Shown here in pieces: positions 52,351 through 60,747 of a DNA stretch of 64,000 bases; positions within the stretch are counted from its first letter, which is position 1; each line of letters starts with the position of its first letter. The notes beneath the pieces are model-generated. The model saw only the letters and a list, made by a program, of their open reading frames with translations, was not told the DNA's origin and searched no databases. Location of the stretch: the NCBI GenBank assembly GCA_037200385.1, contig JBBCGL010000001.1, positions 558,001-622,000 of the forward strand, in the 5' to 3' direction. The translations under genes and the position numbers were made by a program. Source of the stretch: Rhizomicrobium sp. Its GTDB lineage: Bacteria > Pseudomonadota > Alphaproteobacteria > Micropepsales > Micropepsaceae.

Positions 52351-52425
52351 TCAGGCCCGCGAAGGCGGGCATCCAGCCAGCGTGGAGACTCTGGATTCCC
52401 GCTTTGGCGGGAATGACAGCGTAGA
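52351..52425. repeat. Pair of palindromic intergenic repeats
   Basis: Two units side by side: GCCCGCGAAGGCGGGC with ATCCAGCC after it, and GGATTCCCGCTTTGGCGGGAATGAC. Both are short GC-stem palindromes of the kind scattered in alphaproteobacterial genomes; the first shares its core with 31507-31520. They lie between two converging genes. Confidence 0.7.
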
Positions 52426-52456: not shown

Positions 52457-53317
52457 CTAATGCATCATCAGCAGCGGGAGTGAACTCTCCTCCAGCAAGT
52501 CGCGCGTTGCACCGCCGAGGATGAATTCGCGCGCCCGGCTGTGGCCGTAACCGCCCAGGACAAGCAGATCCGCGCCGGCCGCTCCGGCGCCGTCCACGAG
52601 GGCTTCGCCGACCTTCCCGGGGCGAGGGTTCACGCAGCGCACACTCACCTCGGCCGGAAGCCGGCGCAACTGTTCCGCCAGCAGGGCGGCTTCCGCCTCG
52701 GCGTCCTCCAATCCGGCTTCGATGGCGGCCAGCACGACGATCCGCTCGGCGCGCGCGATCAGCGGCATCGCGGCGGTGACGGCGCGTGCCGCTTCCGCGG
52801 TGCTCTTCCAGGCGATCGCGATCGTGCGGCCGGTGGCCGGCGGCAGCTTCCCCGGCGCGAGCAGCACGGGACGTCCGCAACCGACGATGATCCCAGCCAG
52901 ATCGGCCGTCGAAATGCCGAAAGGCTCGGCGTCCCGTCCAACGACAATCAGGTCGTGACGCCGTCCGGCGATGATGATTTCGTCCTTGTTGCGGCCGATC
53001 CGGTCGACCCAACTGGCACCCACGCCCGGGGAGGAGCCCGAAGGCGCCTTAGCGGAAATCCCGTTCTCGCTGCAGAGTGCGTCCAGCGCGGTCTTCGCGG
53101 CGGCGGCGCGACCGCGAATTTCGCCCTCTAGCGTATCGCATACCGGCTGGGTGAGGACGCCTTCGCCCATCGTGAGTTCGGCGATCTCTTCGGTCAGGTT
53201 GCGGCGGACATGAAGGCCATCGATATGGCCGCCGAAAACGGCGGCAATGCGATGTGCGAGATCGAGGGGCAGGCGGTCTCCGCCCAAGCCGAGCAGCGGC
53301 ACGAGGATGTTCTTCAT
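52457..53317 (-). CDS. Tandem-domain universal stress protein
   Basis: 286 residues from ATG at 53317 (AAGGAAG six bases upstream). Two USP domains, about 1-140 and 155-286. The second has the ATP-binding end motif GGYGHSRAREFILGGAT; the first starts MKNILVPLLGLGGDRLPLDL and has DLIVVGRDAEPFG in place of the full motif. Such proteins accumulate under low oxygen or energy stress. A FixK-type box (53376-53389) lies 66 bases upstream of the start, so it is a likely member of the FixLJ-K regulon. Confidence 0.9.
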   Translation of the reverse strand: MKNILVPLLGLGGDRLPLDLAHRIAAVFGGHIDGLHVRRNLTEEIAELTMGEGVLTQPVCDTLEGEIRGRAAAAKTALDALCSENGISAKAPSGSSPGVGASWVDRIGRNKDEIIIAGRRHDLIVVGRDAEPFGISTADLAGIIVGCGRPVLLAPGKLPPATGRTIAIAWKSTAEAARAVTAAMPLIARAERIVVLAAIEAGLEDAEAEAALLAEQLRRLPAEVSVRCVNPRPGKVGEALVDGAGAAGADLLVLGGYGHSRAREFILGGATRDLLEESSLPLLMMH

Positions 53318-53375: not shown

Positions 53376-53389
53376 TTGATCTGGGTCAG
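53376..53389 (-). promoter_or_regulatory. FixK/FNR-type box for the universal stress protein
   Basis: TTGATCTGGGTCAG, two mismatches from TTGATC-N2-GATCAA. Its centre is about 65 bases upstream of the stress-protein ATG, which puts a start site at -41.5 spacing about 24 bases before the ATG. Confidence 0.6.
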
Positions 53390-53410
53390 CCACCGCAAGC
53401 CGGTTGCGGA

Positions 53411-53424
53411 TTGATCCAGCGCAA
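53411..53424 (+). promoter_or_regulatory. FixK/FNR-type box for the 72-residue protein
   Basis: TTGATCCAGCGCAA, two mismatches from TTGATC-N2-GATCAA. Its centre is about 61 bases upstream of the ATG at 53479. With the box at 53376 it makes a divergent pair. Confidence 0.6.
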
Positions 53425-53478
53425 GGATAGCCCGCCGCGCGGCGTGCAGGGTCCTGTGTGTAAACATGGGGTTCACGC

Positions 53479-53697
53479 ATGACGAGCGCGGCAGCGATAG
53501 CGAAACGGCATTTCGAAGAGGCTCTGAAAGAGGCACAGGCCGCCGGTTACGATGCCGACAGCACGGCGCGATACATGCTGGATTGCGTTGTCGCGGACTA
53601 TCTGGCGCGCCGGCCGGCGGCGGACGTCCGCGCCGAGCTCCTGTTCGTCGCGGAGAATTGCGATCCTTCCGCCGATTTCATGTTCATGCGCCCCTAG
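53479..53697 (+). CDS. Small hypothetical protein (FixK-box gene)
   Basis: 72 residues. Helical and acidic at the end: AIAKRHFEEALKEAQAAGYD, TARYMLDCVVADYLARRPA, DVRAELLFVAENCDPSADFM. No signal or membrane helix; two Cys. Not recognised as a named family, but it has the look of small cytoplasmic proteins found next to universal stress genes. GGGG lies upstream. The FixK-type box 61 bases before the start supports a real, oxygen-controlled gene. Confidence 0.72.
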   Translation: MTSAAAIAKRHFEEALKEAQAAGYDADSTARYMLDCVVADYLARRPAADVRAELLFVAENCDPSADFMFMRP

Positions 53698-53709
53698 AAG
53701 GCAGCCGGC

Positions 53710-53735
53710 GTCAGCGCTGCGTCCGCAGCGCTGAC
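53710..53735. terminator. Hairpin between converging small genes
   Basis: A perfect 11-base stem GTCAGCGCTGC/GCAGCGCTGAC with loop GTCC, placed between the stop of the 72-residue gene (53697) and the stop of the 35-residue gene (53752). No strong T-run, but its position fits a two-way terminator. Confidence 0.65.
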
Positions 53736-53751
53736 CGCCTTCGTTGCTGCG

Positions 53752-53859
53752 CTATTTCGAGTCGCTGCCGGCGACGGCCGATGCATAGGCGATCGCCGCC
53801 GCGAGAATCCCGAACGCACTCACGACAAGTCCGAGGAAAAGCTGGTCGGCCAGTGGCAT
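53752..53859 (-). CDS. 35-residue single-helix membrane protein (FixK-box gene)
   Basis: Not listed among longer frames because of its size. From ATG at 53859 it reads MPLADQLFLGLVVSAFGILA, then AAAIAYASAVAGSDSK and a stop. One membrane helix fills about residues 6-29. A strong SD (AAAGGAG, six bases before the ATG) precedes it, and a perfect FixK/FNR box, TTGATCCGGATCAA, is centred 59 bases upstream. Size and design resemble small helper subunits of respiratory enzymes such as oxidases, but no such enzyme is adjacent. Confidence 0.72.
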   Translation of the reverse strand: MPLADQLFLGLVVSAFGILAAAIAYASAVAGSDSK

Positions 53860-53911
53860 GCTCCGCTCCTTTCAAAGATGGGCAAGTCTGGGGCCGGGCC
53901 GGCGGGACGTA

Positions 53912-53925
53912 TTGATCCGGATCAA
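53912..53925 (-). promoter_or_regulatory. Perfect FixK/FNR box
   Basis: TTGATCCGGATCAA, an exact TTGATC-N2-GATCAA palindrome. A site centred at -41.5 would start transcription near 53877, about 18 bases before the 35-residue gene, which is the only gene it can serve in this geometry. Confidence 0.8.
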
Positions 53926-53935
53926 TCGGCGTCGA

Positions 53936-54517
53936 TCAGAGCCCGGCCGCGGCCAGCCGCCGGACTTTGGAAACAGATCGTTCGCGATGCCGTTCGGACA
54001 GCTCGACGCCGCCAATATAGGTTTTGCGCACCGGTTTCACGCCGGCCAGGCGCAGGATGCCGCGTTCGAAGCTGCGCACGCCGAACCCGCCAAAGAGGAG
54101 GCGGAAGGCGAGGGCCGGCATCCCCATGGTAACGATCAGCCGGGCCGATTTGCCCTTCAGGCCGCGCTTCGGATCGCCTGCCGTGCCGCTGTCGAAGCCG
54201 AAGCCCCCGCAGGCGACGCGCTCGAGGAAGCCTTTCAGCATGGCCGGCATGGTGCCGAGCCACAGCGGGTGAACGAAGACGAGATGTTCGGCCCAGGCGA
54301 TTTGGCGTTGCGCGTCGCGAATGCCGGCGTCGTCCGGTTGCGCCCGGAAATCCTCGAAACGGCTCAGCCACCGGAACGACAGGTTGCCAACGGCGATCCG
54401 CCGGATCTCATGTCCGGCGCCGGCCGCAGCTTCGGCATAGGCATCCGAGAGCGCCGCACAAAACCGTTCCGGGCGAATGTCCGGATGCCCGTTGATGACC
54501 AGAATGCGTTTGACCAT
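53936..54517 (-). CDS. Flavodoxin-fold NAD(P)H-dependent oxidoreductase
   Basis: 193 residues. Flavodoxin_2/NQO1-like fold: ILVINGHPDIRPERFCAALS (FMN phosphate loop), HLVFVHPLWLGTMPAMLKGF and LERVACGGFGF, then LIVTMGMPALAFRLLFGGF. It probably reduces quinones or other small oxidants. A degenerate FixK-type box (54567) is centred about 56 bases upstream. A second protein of the same fold is encoded at 57460. Confidence 0.87.
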   Translation of the reverse strand: MVKRILVINGHPDIRPERFCAALSDAYAEAAAGAGHEIRRIAVGNLSFRWLSRFEDFRAQPDDAGIRDAQRQIAWAEHLVFVHPLWLGTMPAMLKGFLERVACGGFGFDSGTAGDPKRGLKGKSARLIVTMGMPALAFRLLFGGFGVRSFERGILRLAGVKPVRKTYIGGVELSERHRERSVSKVRRLAAAGL

Positions 54518-54566
54518 CTCGCTCTTTCCCTTTTCTGTTATAGGCCATGGCGAGGTCGCCGCTGGT

Positions 54567-54580
54567 TTGATCGATGTCAG
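54567..54580. promoter_or_regulatory. FixK/FNR-type box shared by oxidoreductase and fixL
   Basis: TTGATCGATGTCAG, a good left half and weaker right half. Its centre is 56 bases from the oxidoreductase start (minus strand) and 66 bases from the fixL start (plus strand), so it could serve either or both, giving FixK feedback on fixLJ. This is the weakest of the four boxes. Confidence 0.45.
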
Positions 54581-54639: not shown

Positions 54640-55776
54640 ATGGCGGTCGAACGCCGCGGACAAGGCGAGCGACCCGACGATTCCCTGTTCGACGCGCTGA
54701 TCGCGACCGCGGTCGACGGGATCATGGTAATCGACGAGAAAGGCATTGTCCGCATCTACAACAAGGCCTGCGAGCGGCTTTTCGGCTATGAGGCCGCCGA
54801 GGTGATCGGGCGCAACGTCAAGATGCTCATGCCGTCTCCTTATCACGACGAGCATGACGGCTATCTGTCGCACTATGTCGGGACGGGAGAAAAGCACATC
54901 ATCGGTATCGGCCGCGAGGTCTCGGGTCGCCGCAAGGACGGCTCGACCTTTCCGATGAACCTCTCGGTCGGCGAAGGCATCGTGCGTGGCGAACGGATCT
55001 TCCTGGGCATCATCGCCGACATATCGGAGCGTCAGGCACGCGAGCGGCAGATACTGCAATTGCAGATGGAGATGCAGCATGTCGGCCGCCTGATCGACAT
55101 GGGGCAGGTCGCTGCCGGCCTGGCGCATGAACTCAACCAGCCCCTGACGGCGATCCTGAACTATACCAATGCCTGCATCGACATGGCCGCCGAAGCGGGC
55201 GACGCGGACCTGGCTTCGGTGCTGGGAAAAGTGGCGGAGCAGGCGTCGCGCGCCGGCAACATCATTCGCCGGCTGCGTGCCTTCACGGAAAAGCGCGGCC
55301 CGAACCGGGCGCCGGAAGACATCGCCAGGACGGTCGACGAGGCGATCCGGCTTGGTCAGATCCATCCCGCCGAGCGCGGGATAACCCTGCGCGTTCGGCT
55401 CGAGAACGACCTGCCGCCGGTCCTGATCGATCGCGTGCAAATCCAGCAAGTCCTGATCAACCTCATAAAGAACGCCGCGGAAGCGATGGACCTGGCGCCG
55501 CGCCGCGAATTGACCGTCACGATCGGACATCCGATGCCGGATCGCGTCGAGGTCGCGGTGGCCGATAGCGGGCCGGGGATTTCCGGCGAACTGGCGGCAA
55601 AACTCTTCCACCCCTTCGTGACCACCAAGGACAACGGCATGGGCATGGGCCTCAGCATCTGCCGGGGAATTGTCGAATCGCATGGCGGACGGCTATGGCT
55701 GGAAGACAATCCGGACGGCGGCGCGGTTTTCCGCTTCACGCTTCCGGTGGCGGCGGATGACGATCATGGCGCGTGA
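54640..55776 (+). CDS. fixL: Oxygen-sensing PAS histidine kinase FixL
   Basis: 378 residues. The PAS domain (about 13-130) has the FixL haem features: MPSPYHDEHDGYLSHYVGTG with the proximal His at 72, and HIIGIGREVSGRRKDGSTFP with Arg92 matching the O2-contacting Arg. Kinase part: GQVAAGLAHELNQPLTAILN with phospho-His 163, N-box NLIKNAAEAM, G1 ADSGPGISGEL and G2 NGMGMGLSICRGIVESHGG. No membrane helices, so it is soluble like the B. japonicum type. Deoxy-FixL phosphorylates FixJ. It overlaps fixJ. Confidence 0.93.
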   Translation: MAVERRGQGERPDDSLFDALIATAVDGIMVIDEKGIVRIYNKACERLFGYEAAEVIGRNVKMLMPSPYHDEHDGYLSHYVGTGEKHIIGIGREVSGRRKDGSTFPMNLSVGEGIVRGERIFLGIIADISERQARERQILQLQMEMQHVGRLIDMGQVAAGLAHELNQPLTAILNYTNACIDMAAEAGDADLASVLGKVAEQASRAGNIIRRLRAFTEKRGPNRAPEDIARTVDEAIRLGQIHPAERGITLRVRLENDLPPVLIDRVQIQQVLINLIKNAAEAMDLAPRRELTVTIGHPMPDRVEVAVADSGPGISGELAAKLFHPFVTTKDNGMGMGLSICRGIVESHGGRLWLEDNPDGGAVFRFTLPVAADDDHGA

Positions 55777-56362
55777 AAAGACGGTCTGTATCGTCGACGA
55801 CGATGCCGATGTGCGCGACTCGCTGGAAATCCTCCTGCGTCGTTCGGGATATCGCATCCTGTCTTTCGGCTCCGCCCGGGCGTTTCTCGAGACCGGTCTC
55901 AAGGCCGGCAATCTCTGCGTGCTGGCAGACATAAGGATGCCAGAGATGGACGGGCTGGCCCTGCAGCGCGAGATAAACCGGACCATGCCGGGCCTGCCGG
56001 TGATCATCATGACAGGCCATGGCGACGTCCCCATGGCGGTGCAGGCGATGAAGGAGGGCGCGGTCGATTTCCTTGAAAAGCCCTTTGAAAAAGCGATCCT
56101 TACCGGTGCGATCGAAAGCGCCTTGTCACGCAACGCGGCGCCGCAGCCAGATCCGCCGGCGCCGCCGCGCAAAGCGCTGACCGACCGCGAAAAGGACGTC
56201 TTCGACCTGCTGGTCGAGGGACACCAGAACAAGGTCATCGCCTACAAGCTCGGCATTTCGACGCGCACGGTGGAAGTGCATCGCGGCCGCGTGATGGACA
56301 AGCTCGGGGCGAGAAACCTGGCCGATCTCATCAAATACGGGCTGCGGCAGAAGCCCGGCTAG
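55766..56362 (+). CDS. fixJ: Response regulator FixJ
   Basis: 198 residues from ATG at 55766 (ATG at 55757 would add three). Receiver domain: VCIVDDDADVRDSLEILLRR, phospho-Asp 55 in VLADIRMPEMDGLALQ, MTGHGDVPMAVQAMKEGAVD and FLEKPF. A Pro-rich linker (about 130-145) leads to the LuxR-type helix-turn-helix: LTDREKDVFDLLVEGHQNK, GISTRTVEVHRGRVMDKLG. It overlaps the end of fixL and probably activates fixK through the palindrome at 56371. Confidence 0.92.
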   Translation: MAREKTVCIVDDDADVRDSLEILLRRSGYRILSFGSARAFLETGLKAGNLCVLADIRMPEMDGLALQREINRTMPGLPVIIMTGHGDVPMAVQAMKEGAVDFLEKPFEKAILTGAIESALSRNAAPQPDPPAPPRKALTDREKDVFDLLVEGHQNKVIAYKLGISTRTVEVHRGRVMDKLGARNLADLIKYGLRQKPG

Positions 56363-56370
56363 CGCGCGAA

Positions 56371-56393
56371 CTACGTACGTAGTCCGTCCGTAG
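56371..56393 (+). promoter_or_regulatory. Putative FixJ-binding site in front of fixK
   Basis: CTACGTACGTAG, a perfect 12-base palindrome containing GTACGTAG, which fits the published FixJ consensus GTAMGTAG as remembered. A second related element, GTCCGTAG, follows at 56386-56393. It lies 101-123 bases upstream of the fixK start. Confidence 0.65.
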
Positions 56394-56493
56394 GGAGCAG
56401 GCGAAACCGCCGCTCGCGCGTACGAGAAGCACCCAATATGTCGTGCCGCCGCCTTTTGTCAGTGTCGCTCCATCGAACACCGAGGACATAGCG

Positions 56494-57177
56494 ATGACGG
56501 CCCTGCAGACCCAGCAAGTATCCGGATACAATCCGATCGTCGTGGGCCGCCTGGAGCCGCGCTCTTCGCTCGCCTCCATGGGCACCGTCGCCCATTTCGC
56601 CCGCAACACGACGATCTTCAACGAGGGCGACGACGCCGATTATTCCTACAAGGTCGCGAGCGGCGCGGTCCGGCTTTCGAAGATGATGTCCGACGGTCGC
56701 CGCCAGGTCGCCGAATTCGCGCTGCCGGGGGACTTCATCGGCCTCAACTGGCTCGACGAGCACGCCATGACCGCCGAAGCGATCAACGACGTCAGCTTGA
56801 TCTGCTACGCACGCGGGCGGCTGGAGCGCCTCGGCGACGAGAACCGCGAAGTGCGCGCGGAGCTCTTTTCGACGCTTCGCCACGATCTATGGGCGGCGCA
56901 AAACCATCTCGTCATCCTTGGACGGCAGAGCGCGCAGGAGCGGGTCGCCTCCTTTCTGGTGCAGATGCTCGCGCGCGGCAAGCGGTCGGACCATGCCGCC
57001 CTCGACATTCCGATGTCCCGCCGCGATATCGCCGACTATCTCGGACTCACGATCGAGACGGTTTGCCGGATGCTCACCCGGCTGAAGCTGGCCGGGATCA
57101 TCGGCATTCCCAATCGTCACACGATCACCATCCGCAATGCCGCGGCACTCAAGAGAGCGGCGCAACCGGGCGAATAG
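56494..57177 (+). CDS. fixK: Crp/Fnr-family regulator, FixK-type
   Basis: 227 residues from ATG at 56494. A cyclic-nucleotide-like beta-roll (FARNTTIFNEGDDADYSYKV, VRLSKMMSDGRRQVAEFALP) and a Crp-type HTH (SRRDIADYLGLTIETVCRML). It lacks the N-terminal Cys cluster of Fnr, so it does not sense O2 itself, as in FixK. The recognition helix reads ETVCR where FixK/Fnr usually has ETVSR; the E and R that read TTGAT are kept. It should bind the TTGATC boxes around 53.4-54.6 kb. Confidence 0.9.
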   Translation: MTALQTQQVSGYNPIVVGRLEPRSSLASMGTVAHFARNTTIFNEGDDADYSYKVASGAVRLSKMMSDGRRQVAEFALPGDFIGLNWLDEHAMTAEAINDVSLICYARGRLERLGDENREVRAELFSTLRHDLWAAQNHLVILGRQSAQERVASFLVQMLARGKRSDHAALDIPMSRRDIADYLGLTIETVCRMLTRLKLAGIIGIPNRHTITIRNAAALKRAAQPGE

Positions 57178-57202: not shown

Positions 57203-57412
57203 ATGCCGTATACCGTTCAAGGCTACGAAACGCGTGCGCAGGAATGCGTCGAACTCGCCTCGCAGGCGAAGGACGCCCTGGTGCGGATGGAGTTGCTCAA
57301 GATCCGCCAGACCTACCTCAACATCGCCGAACGCCTGCGACGGCAGGGATTTGAGGTGATCGCCCCGGACTATCGCAGTCCGAGAGGCTTGCAGGAAATG
57401 GATCGCAAGTGA
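57203..57412 (+). CDS. Small conserved hypothetical protein
   Basis: 69 residues from ATG at 57203 (GAGGAGG upstream). Helical: YTVQGYETRAQECVELASQA, MELLKIRQTYLNIAERLRRQ, with a short C-terminal FEVIAPDYRSPRG. It resembles small alphaproteobacterial proteins with repeated ALVRMELL-type motifs; function unknown. It lies 25 bases after fixK and is probably cotranscribed. Confidence 0.75.
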   Translation: MPYTVQGYETRAQECVELASQAKDALVRMELLKIRQTYLNIAERLRRQGFEVIAPDYRSPRGLQEMDRK

Positions 57413-57459: not shown

Positions 57460-58059
57460 ATGAAGCATGCCATCATCGTCGCGCATCCGAAGGGCGCGAG
57501 CTTCACCGGCACCCTTGCTTCGGCCTATAGCGAAGCCGTCCAGGGACAAGGACATGGGGCCGTCATCCGCGATCTGTACCGCATGCGGTTCGATCCCTGC
57601 CTCGCCGAAAGCGAATGGCCGTGGTCGGAAGATGCCGCGCCCCGCCAAGACGTCGTCGCCGAGCGGGAGATGCTTCGCGACGTCGACGTGTTCGCGCTGT
57701 TTTATCCCATATGGCTGAACGCCCCGCCGGCGATCCTCAAAGGCTATCTCGAACGCGTTTTCGGTCTCGGCTTCGCCTACCGCCGCGAAGGGGCAGGCAA
57801 TGCACCCTTGCTGAAGGGCCGCAAGCTCGTGAGCTTCACCGCGTCGGGGGCGCCGACGGAGTGGGTGATCCAGAGCGGCGCCTGGCAGGCGATGCGATTG
57901 CTGTTCGACAGTCATTTCGCCGCGGTCTGCGGGCTTGAGGTCGTGGATCATATACATTTCGGCGGTATCGTACCGGGTATTCGCGCCGACTCGGTGGAGA
58001 CCGACGCCGAGACGGTGCGCGAAAACGTCAAAAAACATTTCGGCCGCGCCAAGAGCTGA
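57460..58059 (+). CDS. Flavodoxin-fold NAD(P)H-dependent oxidoreductase (second copy)
   Basis: 199 residues. KHAIIVAHPKGASFTGTLAS gives the FMN loop; VFALFYPIWLNAPPAILKGY and LERVFGLGFAYRREG are the NQO1/KefF-type core; LLKGRKLVSFTASGAPTEWV follows. It shares fold and layout with the protein at 53936, so a local pair of quinone reductase-like enzymes flanks fixLJK. The acyl-CoA synthetase gene follows after 9 bases. Confidence 0.87.
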   Translation: MKHAIIVAHPKGASFTGTLASAYSEAVQGQGHGAVIRDLYRMRFDPCLAESEWPWSEDAAPRQDVVAEREMLRDVDVFALFYPIWLNAPPAILKGYLERVFGLGFAYRREGAGNAPLLKGRKLVSFTASGAPTEWVIQSGAWQAMRLLFDSHFAAVCGLEVVDHIHFGGIVPGIRADSVETDAETVRENVKKHFGRAKS

Positions 58060-58068
58060 GCATCCGCC

Positions 58069-60747
58069 ATGAGCGTCCGCAATCTCGGTTCGATTTTTCG
58101 GCCGGCGAGCATCGCGTTGATCGGTGCCAGCACGCGGCCGCATTCCGTCGGTGCCGTCATCGCGGACAATTTGCGGGCGGCGGGTTTCGACGGACCGGTC
58201 CTGCCGGTCAATCCCAAGCACCGGGCGGTGGCCGGGGCATTGGCCTATCCGGATGTGGCCGCCCTGCCGCTGGCGCCCGAACTCGCGATCATCTGCACGC
58301 CGGCTGAAACGGTACCCGGCCTGATCGCCGAATTGGGTGCGCGCGGGACCAAGGCCGCCATCGTGATCTCCGCCGGTTTCGGCGAGGCCGCCGAAGCGCA
58401 CGGACATGCCCTGCAGCAGGCAATGCTCGATGCGGCCAAGCCCTATCTCATGCGCATCGTCGGACCCAATTGCCTCGGCGTCCTGTCGACGCCGAGGCGA
58501 CTCAACGCCTCTTTCGCGCAGGCCGCGCCGCTGCCTGGCCAAGTTGCGTTCGTGGCGCAATCGGGCGCGATGGTGACGACCGTGCTCGACTGGGCCAACG
58601 GCCGCGGTATCGGCTTCTCGCATCTCGTTTCTCTGGGCGACATGAGCGATGTCGATTTCGGGGATATGCTGGATTATCTGGCGACCGACGATTCGACCTC
58701 TGCGATCCTGCTCTATGTCGAAGCGGTGACGCAGGCGCGCAAGTTCATGTCGGCGGCGCGCGCCGCCGCGCGCCTGAAGCCGGTGATTGCGATCAAGGCG
58801 GGGCGTCAGCCGGCGGCAGCGAAGGCGGCGTCCTCGCACACCGGCGCACTGGCCGGGATCGATGCGGTCTACGATGCCGCGTTCGCGCGCGCCGGCATCG
58901 TCCGCGCCTATGATCTCGATGAGGTATTCGATGCGGTGGAGACGCTGGCGATCCGGCCGCGCGTGGACGGCGGTCGCCTGACCATCTTGACCAATGGCGG
59001 CGGGGTCGGCGTGCTCGCGACGGACGCATTGATCGGGCAGGGCGGCACGCTGGCAACGCTATCGGCCGCCACCATCGCCGAACTCGACAAGGTGCTCCCG
59101 GCGTCCTGGTCGCACGGCAATCCCGTGGACATCATCGGCGATGCCAGCGCGAAGCGCTATGCCGACGCGCTGGCGGTTCTGGCCGGGACGGCCGAGCAGG
59201 ACGCCATATTGGTCCTGAACTGCCCGACCGCCGTCGGCGCCGGTGTGGAAGCGGCGGATGCGGTCGTCGCGGCGGCTGCCGCCACAAAGACGCCCATCCT
59301 GACCAATTGGCTGGGCGCACGCTCGGCGGAAGCGGCGCGTGCAAAATTCGCCGCGGCAAAACTGCCGAGCTACGATACGCCGGAGAAGGCGACGCGCGGC
59401 TTCATGCATCTCGTCCGCTATCGCCAGGGCCAGAACATGCTGATGGAGGTACCGCCGTCGATCCCGGACGGCGAAGCGCCGGACCGGATCGCGGCGCGGC
59501 AGATCGTTGCGCAAGCGCAACCGGGTTGGCTGGACAGTCTGGCGGCGCAGCGCCTTCTCGAGTGCTATCGGGTGCCGTTCGTCCGCACCTTCCGGACCGC
59601 GACCGCGGAAGAAGCCGGCGCGGCGGCGGGCGGGATCGGGGCGCCGGTCGCGCTGAAAATCCTGTCGCCCGACATCACGCACAAGTCCGATGTCGGCGGC
59701 GTCGTCCTGAACCTGACCGGCGCCGATGCCGTACGCGCCGCGGCGGCGGGCATGCAGGCCCGTATCGCCAAGCTCCTGCCGGCGGCCCGCCTCGACGGAT
59801 TCCTCGTGCAGGAGATGATCCACAGGCCGCTGGCGCACGAGCTCATCGCCGGCATGGCCGTCGATCGCACCTTCGGACCGTTCCTCCTCTTCGGTCAGGG
59901 CGGCACCGCCGTCGAGGTGATCGACGACAAAGCGCTGGGTTTGCCGCCGCTCAACATGAAACTCGCACACGACATGATCGCGCGCACGAGGGTCTATAAG
60001 TTGCTGCGCGGCTATCGCGACCGGCCCGCCGCACAGCTTGATGCCATTGCCCTGACGCTTGTGCGTCTTTCGCAGCTCGCAAGCGACTTCCCCGAGATCG
60101 CGGAGCTCGACATCAATCCGCTTCTCGCCGACGAGCAGGGCGTGATCGCGCTCGATGCGCGGGTGAAGATCCAGCCTATCGAGGGTGCGGCGCGCGACCG
60201 GCTGGCGATCCGGCCCTATCCGGAGGACCTGGTCCGGCGCGAGAGCGTCGCCGGCATGGGGGAGTACCTGCTGCGTCCGGTGCGGCCGGAAGATGCGCCG
60301 GCCTTCGAGCGGCTGTTCAGCCGGCTGACGCCGGAGGATGTCCATATGCGGTTCTTCACCCCGATGCACACGCTCTCCGGCCCGCTGCTCGCGCGCCTGA
60401 CGCAGATCGACTACGATCGCGAGATGGCCTTCGTCCTGGCCGATGGCGACGGGGAGATCGCCGGCGTCGGGCGTCTTGCCGCCGATCCCGACAACCGGAG
60501 CGCGGAGTTCGCGGTTCTGGTTCGCAGCGACCTGAAGAACCACCGTCTGGGGACGCTGCTGATGCAGAGCATCGTCGCCTATGCCGATGCGCGCGGGATC
60601 GCCGAGCTTTGGGGCGATATGCTGGTCGAGAACACGCCCATGCTTGCCCTTTGCCGGGACCTGGGCTGTACGATCGGTGCCTCGCCGCACGACGCCGCGA
60701 TGGCGCGTGCCATCCTGCGGCGCAAGGCGCCAGCGGTGGCCGGCTGA
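58069..60747 (+). CDS. ADP-forming acyl/acetyl-CoA synthetase fused to GNAT acetyltransferase
   Basis: 892 residues. The N-terminal CoA-binding domain starts SIFRPASIALIGASTRPHSV. A ligase-CoA part with the catalytic-type His in SSHTGALAGIDAVYDAAFAR follows; then an ATP-grasp domain (about 480-700, VALKILSPDITHKSDVGGVV, GPFLLFGQGGTAVEV) and a GNAT domain (about 730-890: VRPEDAPAFERLFSRLTPED, RMPFF-like MRFFTPMH, LKNHRLGTLLMQSIVAYADA). The same order occurs in protein acetyltransferases Pat/Pka-type and ADP-forming acetate-CoA ligases; here the ligase half looks complete. It could gain ATP from acyl-CoA under low oxygen; substrate unknown. Confidence 0.87.
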   Translation: MSVRNLGSIFRPASIALIGASTRPHSVGAVIADNLRAAGFDGPVLPVNPKHRAVAGALAYPDVAALPLAPELAIICTPAETVPGLIAELGARGTKAAIVISAGFGEAAEAHGHALQQAMLDAAKPYLMRIVGPNCLGVLSTPRRLNASFAQAAPLPGQVAFVAQSGAMVTTVLDWANGRGIGFSHLVSLGDMSDVDFGDMLDYLATDDSTSAILLYVEAVTQARKFMSAARAAARLKPVIAIKAGRQPAAAKAASSHTGALAGIDAVYDAAFARAGIVRAYDLDEVFDAVETLAIRPRVDGGRLTILTNGGGVGVLATDALIGQGGTLATLSAATIAELDKVLPASWSHGNPVDIIGDASAKRYADALAVLAGTAEQDAILVLNCPTAVGAGVEAADAVVAAAAATKTPILTNWLGARSAEAARAKFAAAKLPSYDTPEKATRGFMHLVRYRQGQNMLMEVPPSIPDGEAPDRIAARQIVAQAQPGWLDSLAAQRLLECYRVPFVRTFRTATAEEAGAAAGGIGAPVALKILSPDITHKSDVGGVVLNLTGADAVRAAAAGMQARIAKLLPAARLDGFLVQEMIHRPLAHELIAGMAVDRTFGPFLLFGQGGTAVEVIDDKALGLPPLNMKLAHDMIARTRVYKLLRGYRDRPAAQLDAIALTLVRLSQLASDFPEIAELDINPLLADEQGVIALDARVKIQPIEGAARDRLAIRPYPEDLVRRESVAGMGEYLLRPVRPEDAPAFERLFSRLTPEDVHMRFFTPMHTLSGPLLARLTQIDYDREMAFVLADGDGEIAGVGRLAADPDNRSAEFAVLVRSDLKNHRLGTLLMQSIVAYADARGIAELWGDMLVENTPMLALCRDLGCTIGASPHDAAMARAILRRKAPAVAG

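Follow-up and report, generated by a model that had tools for sequence, protein, structure and literature searches.

The window (the whole 64-kb stretch of DNA analysed) very probably carries a low-oxygen cascade of FixL, FixJ and FixK surrounded by some of its own target genes, the regulation being predicted from sequence. Circuits of this kind are known, and the interest of this one lies in two unannotated small-protein families that are marked by the boxes. Four FixK/FNR-type boxes were located beside the fixLJK genes. The box at 53376..53389 (reverse strand) faces the gene of a universal stress protein (USP) of 286 residues (52457..53317, reverse strand; Pfam Usp, 4.5e-9), and that at 53411..53424 (forward strand) the gene of a 72-residue protein (53479..53697, forward strand), the founder of the first family. 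A perfect box at 53912..53925 (reverse strand) serves the gene of a 35-residue protein (53752..53859, reverse strand), which belongs to the second. The fourth, at 54567..54580 and assigned to neither strand, lies in the divergent interval between fixL and the gene of a flavodoxin-fold (Flavodoxin_2) oxidoreductase (53936..54517, reverse strand; Pfam, 1e-34). The positions and letters of all four boxes, at 53376, 53411, 53912 and 54567, were exactly those of the original prediction.

Under low oxygen, the heme-PAS kinase FixL would phosphorylate FixJ, which would switch on fixK through the palindrome CTACGTACGTAG. FixK would then bind TTGAT-N4-ATCAA boxes centred at about -41.5 and activate the genes of the universal stress protein, the 72- and 35-residue proteins and the flavodoxin-fold oxidoreductase, and probably also fixLJ as a feedback. 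Where a bacterium has no FixK, an FNR-type protein (FnrL or Anr, for example) may recognise the box instead. The genes, boxes, spacing and conservation are read directly from the DNA, and it is from them that we infer the binding, the regulator responsible, the response to oxygen and the direction of regulation.

The fixLJK genes and the regulators of the boxes

The assignment of the genes at 54640-57177 as fixLJK was borne out by domains, NCBIfam matches and PDB comparisons. FixL (54640..55776, forward strand) is a heme-PAS histidine kinase with PAS, HisKA and HATPase domains, and its PAS domain aligns with solved FixL PAS chains (1dp6) over the EHDGY and GIGR stretches, which we take to hold the heme-ligand His and the switch-region Arg. 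It matches the NCBIfam FixL model, of 485 positions, from position 125 onwards (1.2e-123; 413 bits, under the 850-bit cut-off). FixJ (55769..56362, forward strand) is a response regulator with a receiver and a LuxR-type HTH domain by Pfam and has FixJ as its best NCBIfam match (216 bits, cut-off 255), and FixK (56494..57177, forward strand) is a CRP/FNR-family regulator that scored 179 bits for a cut-off of 300, so that none of the three reaches the curated NCBIfam cut-off. The nearest PDB entry to FixK is the FixK2 chain 4i2o (2.8e-40). It has no N-terminal cysteine cluster, the Fe-S cysteines of FNR being absent, and retains the E-x-x-S/C-R recognition helix as ETVCR; FNR-type recognition helices usually have Ser where this FixK has Cys.

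Before fixK lies the palindrome CTACGTACGTAG (56371..56382, assigned to neither strand), a FixJ-type site which had no part in the original prediction. It holds the only occurrence in the window of GTAMGTAG, which is given as the FixJ consensus in the accessible text of PMC4999443. A FixJ-type site was also present before fixK in four relatives (L037, L038, L041 and L095) and was not found there in L039, L045 and L084. Directly behind fixK follow a 69-residue protein with no family match (57203..57412, forward strand; kept in G028, G029 and G022), a second Flavodoxin_2 oxidoreductase (57460..58059, forward strand) and a fusion of an acyl-CoA synthetase (CoA-binding, ATP-grasp) with GNAT (58069..60747, forward strand), the last two being linked in relatives as well. 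At the other end of the neighbourhood, a short intergenic inverted repeat at 52396-52413 (TTCCCGCTTTGGCGGGAA) resembles a dispersed palindromic element.

The cluster had been described as a self-contained regulon of mostly uncharacterised small genes, and neither part of that description was supported. Only two of the five genes that the boxes face are both small and uncharacterised. In the 5.0-Mb genome, TTGATNNNNNTCAA gave 11 forward and 10 reverse matches at 15 places, where a mirrored control gave 1 and 2 matches, and the facing gene was set by family match at five of these places (the window, L001, L007, L008 and L014). Outside the window, an ompW-type gene has a box 62.5 bases ahead of it, and a hemN-type gene on the other side of that box starts 151.5 bases away (L007; the hemN match is a 130-residue piece and so falls below the cut-off). 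A box also lies about 210 bases upstream of ccoN (L008), and a PNPOx-family gene (L001) and a nitroreductase gene (L014) have one at 60.5 and 52.5 bases, respectively. As these genes have boxes elsewhere in the genome, the cluster in the window is one part of a larger regulon. The accessible text of PMC4999443 gives cco and hemN among FixK/FNR targets, and the predicted alphaproteobacterial FNR/FixK/DNR regulons of Dufour et al. 2010 list FixL, FixJ, USP, OmpW, HemN and cbb3 oxidase genes in the part available (PMC2908626). The presence of boxes at ccoN, hemN and ompW, low-oxygen targets listed there, in the same genome supports the cascade as the explanation.

Seven Crp-type HTH proteins in the genome exceed the Pfam cut-off and two of them have a FixK-type helix. 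The second of these, L146 (G000:C1:2828264-2828482), has the same recognition helix, LGLTIETVCR, as the local FixK, and the boxes may be real and yet be read mainly by L146, or by both proteins, so that the fixLJK neighbourhood would not be the whole circuit. The 72-residue gene of a P. veronii plasmid fits with this, as it has a box and the genes listed over 8 kb to its left and right include no fixLJK; it adjoins yacG/coaE. Such a reading is nevertheless rather unlikely, as several members of the genus have the 72-residue gene linked to fixL/J/K, family f63 has it linked to fixL/J, and the FixJ-type site stands before the local fixK in relatives too.

Box spacing and the promoter of the 72-residue family

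The distances from box centre to ATG, claimed to be nearly equal, were recomputed as 65.5 (USP), 61.5 (72-residue protein), 59.5 (35-residue protein), 56.5 (oxidoreductase) and 66.5 (fixL), i.e. a range of 56.5-66.5 over the five facing genes, and all five agreed with the claim. To see how far this spacing extends, boxes were scored over the 10 positions of TTGAT-N4-ATCAA and a site was counted at 8 or more matching positions. Within 120 bp upstream, such a box was found in 29 of 51 alphaproteobacterial genes of the 72-residue family, while shuffles gave a mean of 2.38 (maximum 8, 200 shuffles) and the mirrored motif gave 0. In 63-base windows from -1000 to +600, there was a single clear peak at -100 to -37 (25/51), with at most 6 elsewhere. 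The 51 genes omit L040, which is truncated where its contig stops, L093 and L094, which match at E about 1e-4 and lack the FMRP tail, and G141 (E 4.7e-4). By family, the box was present in all examined genes of f39 (3/3), f41 (3/3), f111 (3/3) and f75 (4/4), in 4/5 of both f9 and f86 and in 8/11 of f1. The 22 genes that have no box at this threshold include all those examined in f63 (5), f64 (3), f116 (3), f4 (2), f73 (2), f88 (1) and f113 (1). The f113 gene has a 7-match site at 60.5, the box-less gene in G013 lies close behind fixK, and those in G022 and G100 lie behind an oxidoreductase gene with a box of its own.

A box preceded 42 of the 44 Pseudomonas-family genes, always 57.5-64.5 from the ATG, and the mirrored motif again gave 0. 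The two counted as misses are L131, whose start is misplaced and which does have the box CTGACCTGGATCAA, and L178, which has a 7-match site; two of the 32 matches in the Pseudomonas genus have no locus and were left out of the promoter reading, and L126, a class relative, stands outside this set. When 47 promoters were aligned on their boxes, YANNNT began at +29.5 in 13 of them and at +28.5 in a further 11 (24/47), for a background mean of 1.46 per offset; the alphaproteobacterial and later groups in this test share L121-L123, and L131 was omitted. In the Pseudomonas-family promoters, a set overlapping with the former, the offsets were +29.5 in 30 and +28.5 in 8 (38/42). With a box centred at -41.5, the -10 element would begin at +28.5/+29.5, and these offsets therefore support class II activation for the 72-residue family.

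Within the window, and counted from the box centre, YANNNT stood between +28.5 and +30.5 in the promoters of the 72-residue gene (CAGGGT at +29.5) and the 35-residue gene (CAGACT at +28.5), and was absent over this range from those of USP, the oxidoreductase and fixL. The oxidoreductase promoter has TATAAC at +31.5, 2 bp beyond the expected place, and the -10-like elements of the window promoters are weak. The part of the original prediction that proposed activation from -41.5 thus found support, with start sites inferred, across the 72-residue family; of the window promoters, those of the 72- and 35-residue genes fit it and the other three do not clearly do so. The missing YANNNT of fixL and the displaced TATAAC of the oxidoreductase would also suit a FixK that represses some of the genes, above all fixL, instead of activating them. 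We consider this unlikely, as the centre-to-ATG distances match those of the 72-residue family, whose -10-like element fits activation.

Two families of small proteins

The 72-residue family, defined from the protein encoded at 53479..53697, found no family match in Pfam, NCBIfam or PDB, and one of 54 members touches UPF0738 (E = 0.007). The family was present in 14 of 100 relatives, 45 of 387 genomes of the class Alphaproteobacteria and 19 of 397 genomes of the phylum, each count including the own genome. One genus (f183), called Pseudomonas because the P. veronii plasmid protein is identical to the members L127-L129, has it in 32 of 59 genomes, and four of 72,556 plasmid records carry it, three from Bradyrhizobium and one from P. 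veronii. The founder ends in FMRP, and the C-terminal residues of 100 members were FMRP in 94, FIRP in 5 and FMPP in 1. Its structure was modelled, with modest confidence, as three helices and a loose tail, and our best guess is that it is a soluble three-helix protein that would bind a partner through the FMRP tail. In seven loci of f9 and f111 (L048, L081, L096, L100, L111, L114 and L120), a DUF1491 gene lies on the opposite strand, 215-318 bp from the start of the 72-residue gene.

FixT is described as a receiver domain that binds Fe-S in the title of PMC7078487, and the small size of the 72-residue protein, its FixK-type box and its position next to fixL in the genus and in f63 could indicate a FixT-like feedback inhibitor lying beside its target FixL. 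This is very unlikely, as the family has neither a receiver match nor an invariant cysteine, its model (of modest confidence) has three helices and the P. veronii copy adjoins yacG/coaE. Better candidates for FixT are the single receiver proteins with an upstream box between fixJ and fixK in L039, L041 and L084. Single receiver-domain genes with a FixK-type box upstream, likewise candidates for FixT-like proteins, occur in the fixJ-fixK interval of L083 and L095 also, the Pfam comparison covering the L039 gene, and that interval in the window has no room for such a gene.

The 35-residue protein shows one hydrophobic stretch as read from its sequence. Its homologues have about 31-39 residues, two of them with longer tails. 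Five genomes within the genus, the own genome included, have one near fixL, and others come from other families. The family had no meaningful match in PDB, Pfam or NCBIfam (best PDB E = 3; best NCBIfam E = 0.004, below the cut-off). A box was present upstream of 11 of 14 family genes, against 0.55 in shuffles of non-overlapping dinucleotides (maximum 3, 500 shuffles); the boxes of L037, L038 and L031 were known before this count, and the fresh part, L184-L192, accounts for 6 of 9. The 14 genes omit L193 (a transporter-like protein), L194-L196, L033 and L034. Between two relatives, the gene differs by 8 synonymous and 4 nonsynonymous codons. In L189 and L192, it lies in front of a kinase gene whose two PAS domains show, by eye, the FixL-type motif, and in L192 an ATP-grasp_5 gene of acyl-CoA synthetase type stands beside it. 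No oxidase gene was recognised by eye near the relatives of the 35-residue gene in seven 3-kb loci.

Respiratory membrane subunits of the CydX/CcoM type have about 30-40 residues, one hydrophobic stretch and a low-oxygen-type promoter. The 35-residue protein resembles them in size, hydrophobic stretch and promoter, although it has no meaningful library match, and our best guess is that it is a small membrane subunit or a regulator of a respiratory complex. It is quite possible, if short of probable, that the two proteins are undescribed core components of the low-oxygen response in proteobacteria under FNR/Anr/FixK control, the 72-residue one across two classes, and that its strictly C-terminal FMRP tail docks on a conserved target and adjusts it during oxygen limitation.

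Conservation of the boxes and comparison with known systems

In close relatives, the boxes are kept before the 72- and 35-residue genes and in the oxidoreductase/fixL interval, the conservation called for in related genomes by the original prediction. The proteins of the relatives keeping boxes at these three places are 37-77% identical. Two boxes lie 26 bp apart before the 72-residue gene in L037 and L038, and 35 bp apart in the window. A box occurs in the divergent oxidoreductase/fixL interval of L038, L041 and L095, and L037 has one upstream of fixL; these boxes of the genus relatives score 9 or 10 against 8 in the window. Within 220 bp upstream of fixL, none was found in the more distant loci, L039 and four of f63. 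Boxes precede the USP relatives of four f63 loci and the distant USP of L045, and a pattern search returned none upstream of the USP of L037. Box-like matches at 56734 (inside fixK) and 58783 (inside the acyl-CoA synthetase gene) stand at the same place in some relatives, a recurrence that is probably imposed by the coding sequence.

Three of the four boxes match only 8 of the 10 consensus positions, and the window holds 17 box-like sites (at least 8/10) against 10.6 +/- 3.4 in shuffles (200 shuffles, maximum 20), so the total alone is unremarkable; the mirrored motif gave 4 sites in the real window. A search for TTGATNNNNNNCAA with one mismatch allowed gave 34 matches where 22.3 were expected, a number reached in 3 of 100 shuffles. 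Four sites within 1205 bp were seen in one of 200 shuffles, and an intact TTGAT half with at least 3/5 in the other half occurs at 5 sites in the 64 kb, 4 of them in this cluster. That the boxes are chance matches in DNA of this composition, as a total so far from extreme might suggest, is extremely improbable in view of this clustering, of the conservation at fixed positions, which speaks for the 72- and 35-residue boxes in particular and leaves the box at 53376 (USP) the weakest case and the least supported of the four, and of the mirrored motif at 0 in the 72-residue family tests. The boxes are real and conserved, and they are most likely functional.

Decades of work have gone into the FixLJ-FixK and Anr regulons, and yet two small families with a regular promoter of this type have neither an entry in Pfam, NCBIfam or PDB nor a name in the papers retrieved. 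No paper naming either family was found in a literature largely without subscription journals, and the accessible text of Dufour et al. 2010 (PMC2908626) describes neither. Its regulons contain rows of unnamed "hypothetical proteins", and the 72-residue gene may be among them, so part of the finding may stand there nameless. The boxes of the Pseudomonas 72-residue genes are like the Anr boxes of the core Anr regulon of Pseudomonas, in whose available text neither yacG nor coaE, both found next to the P. veronii copy, is mentioned (PMC6588701). As the 72-residue family reaches Pseudomonas, where genetics is easy, a role in oxygen limitation is directly testable. Promoter conservation can thus hint at the function of genes that are too small for annotation.

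The FixLJ-FixK2 cascade of Bradyrhizobium and the FixLJ-FixK cascade of Caulobacter have in common with the window the heme-PAS kinase, FixJ, FixK and a FixJ-type site before fixK. A FixK box precedes fixLJ in these cascades as in the window, fixLJ being among the FixK targets in the accessible texts of PMC2908626 and PMC4999443. The window differs from both in that its boxes face a universal stress protein, a flavodoxin-fold oxidoreductase and the two small proteins whose families lack annotation.
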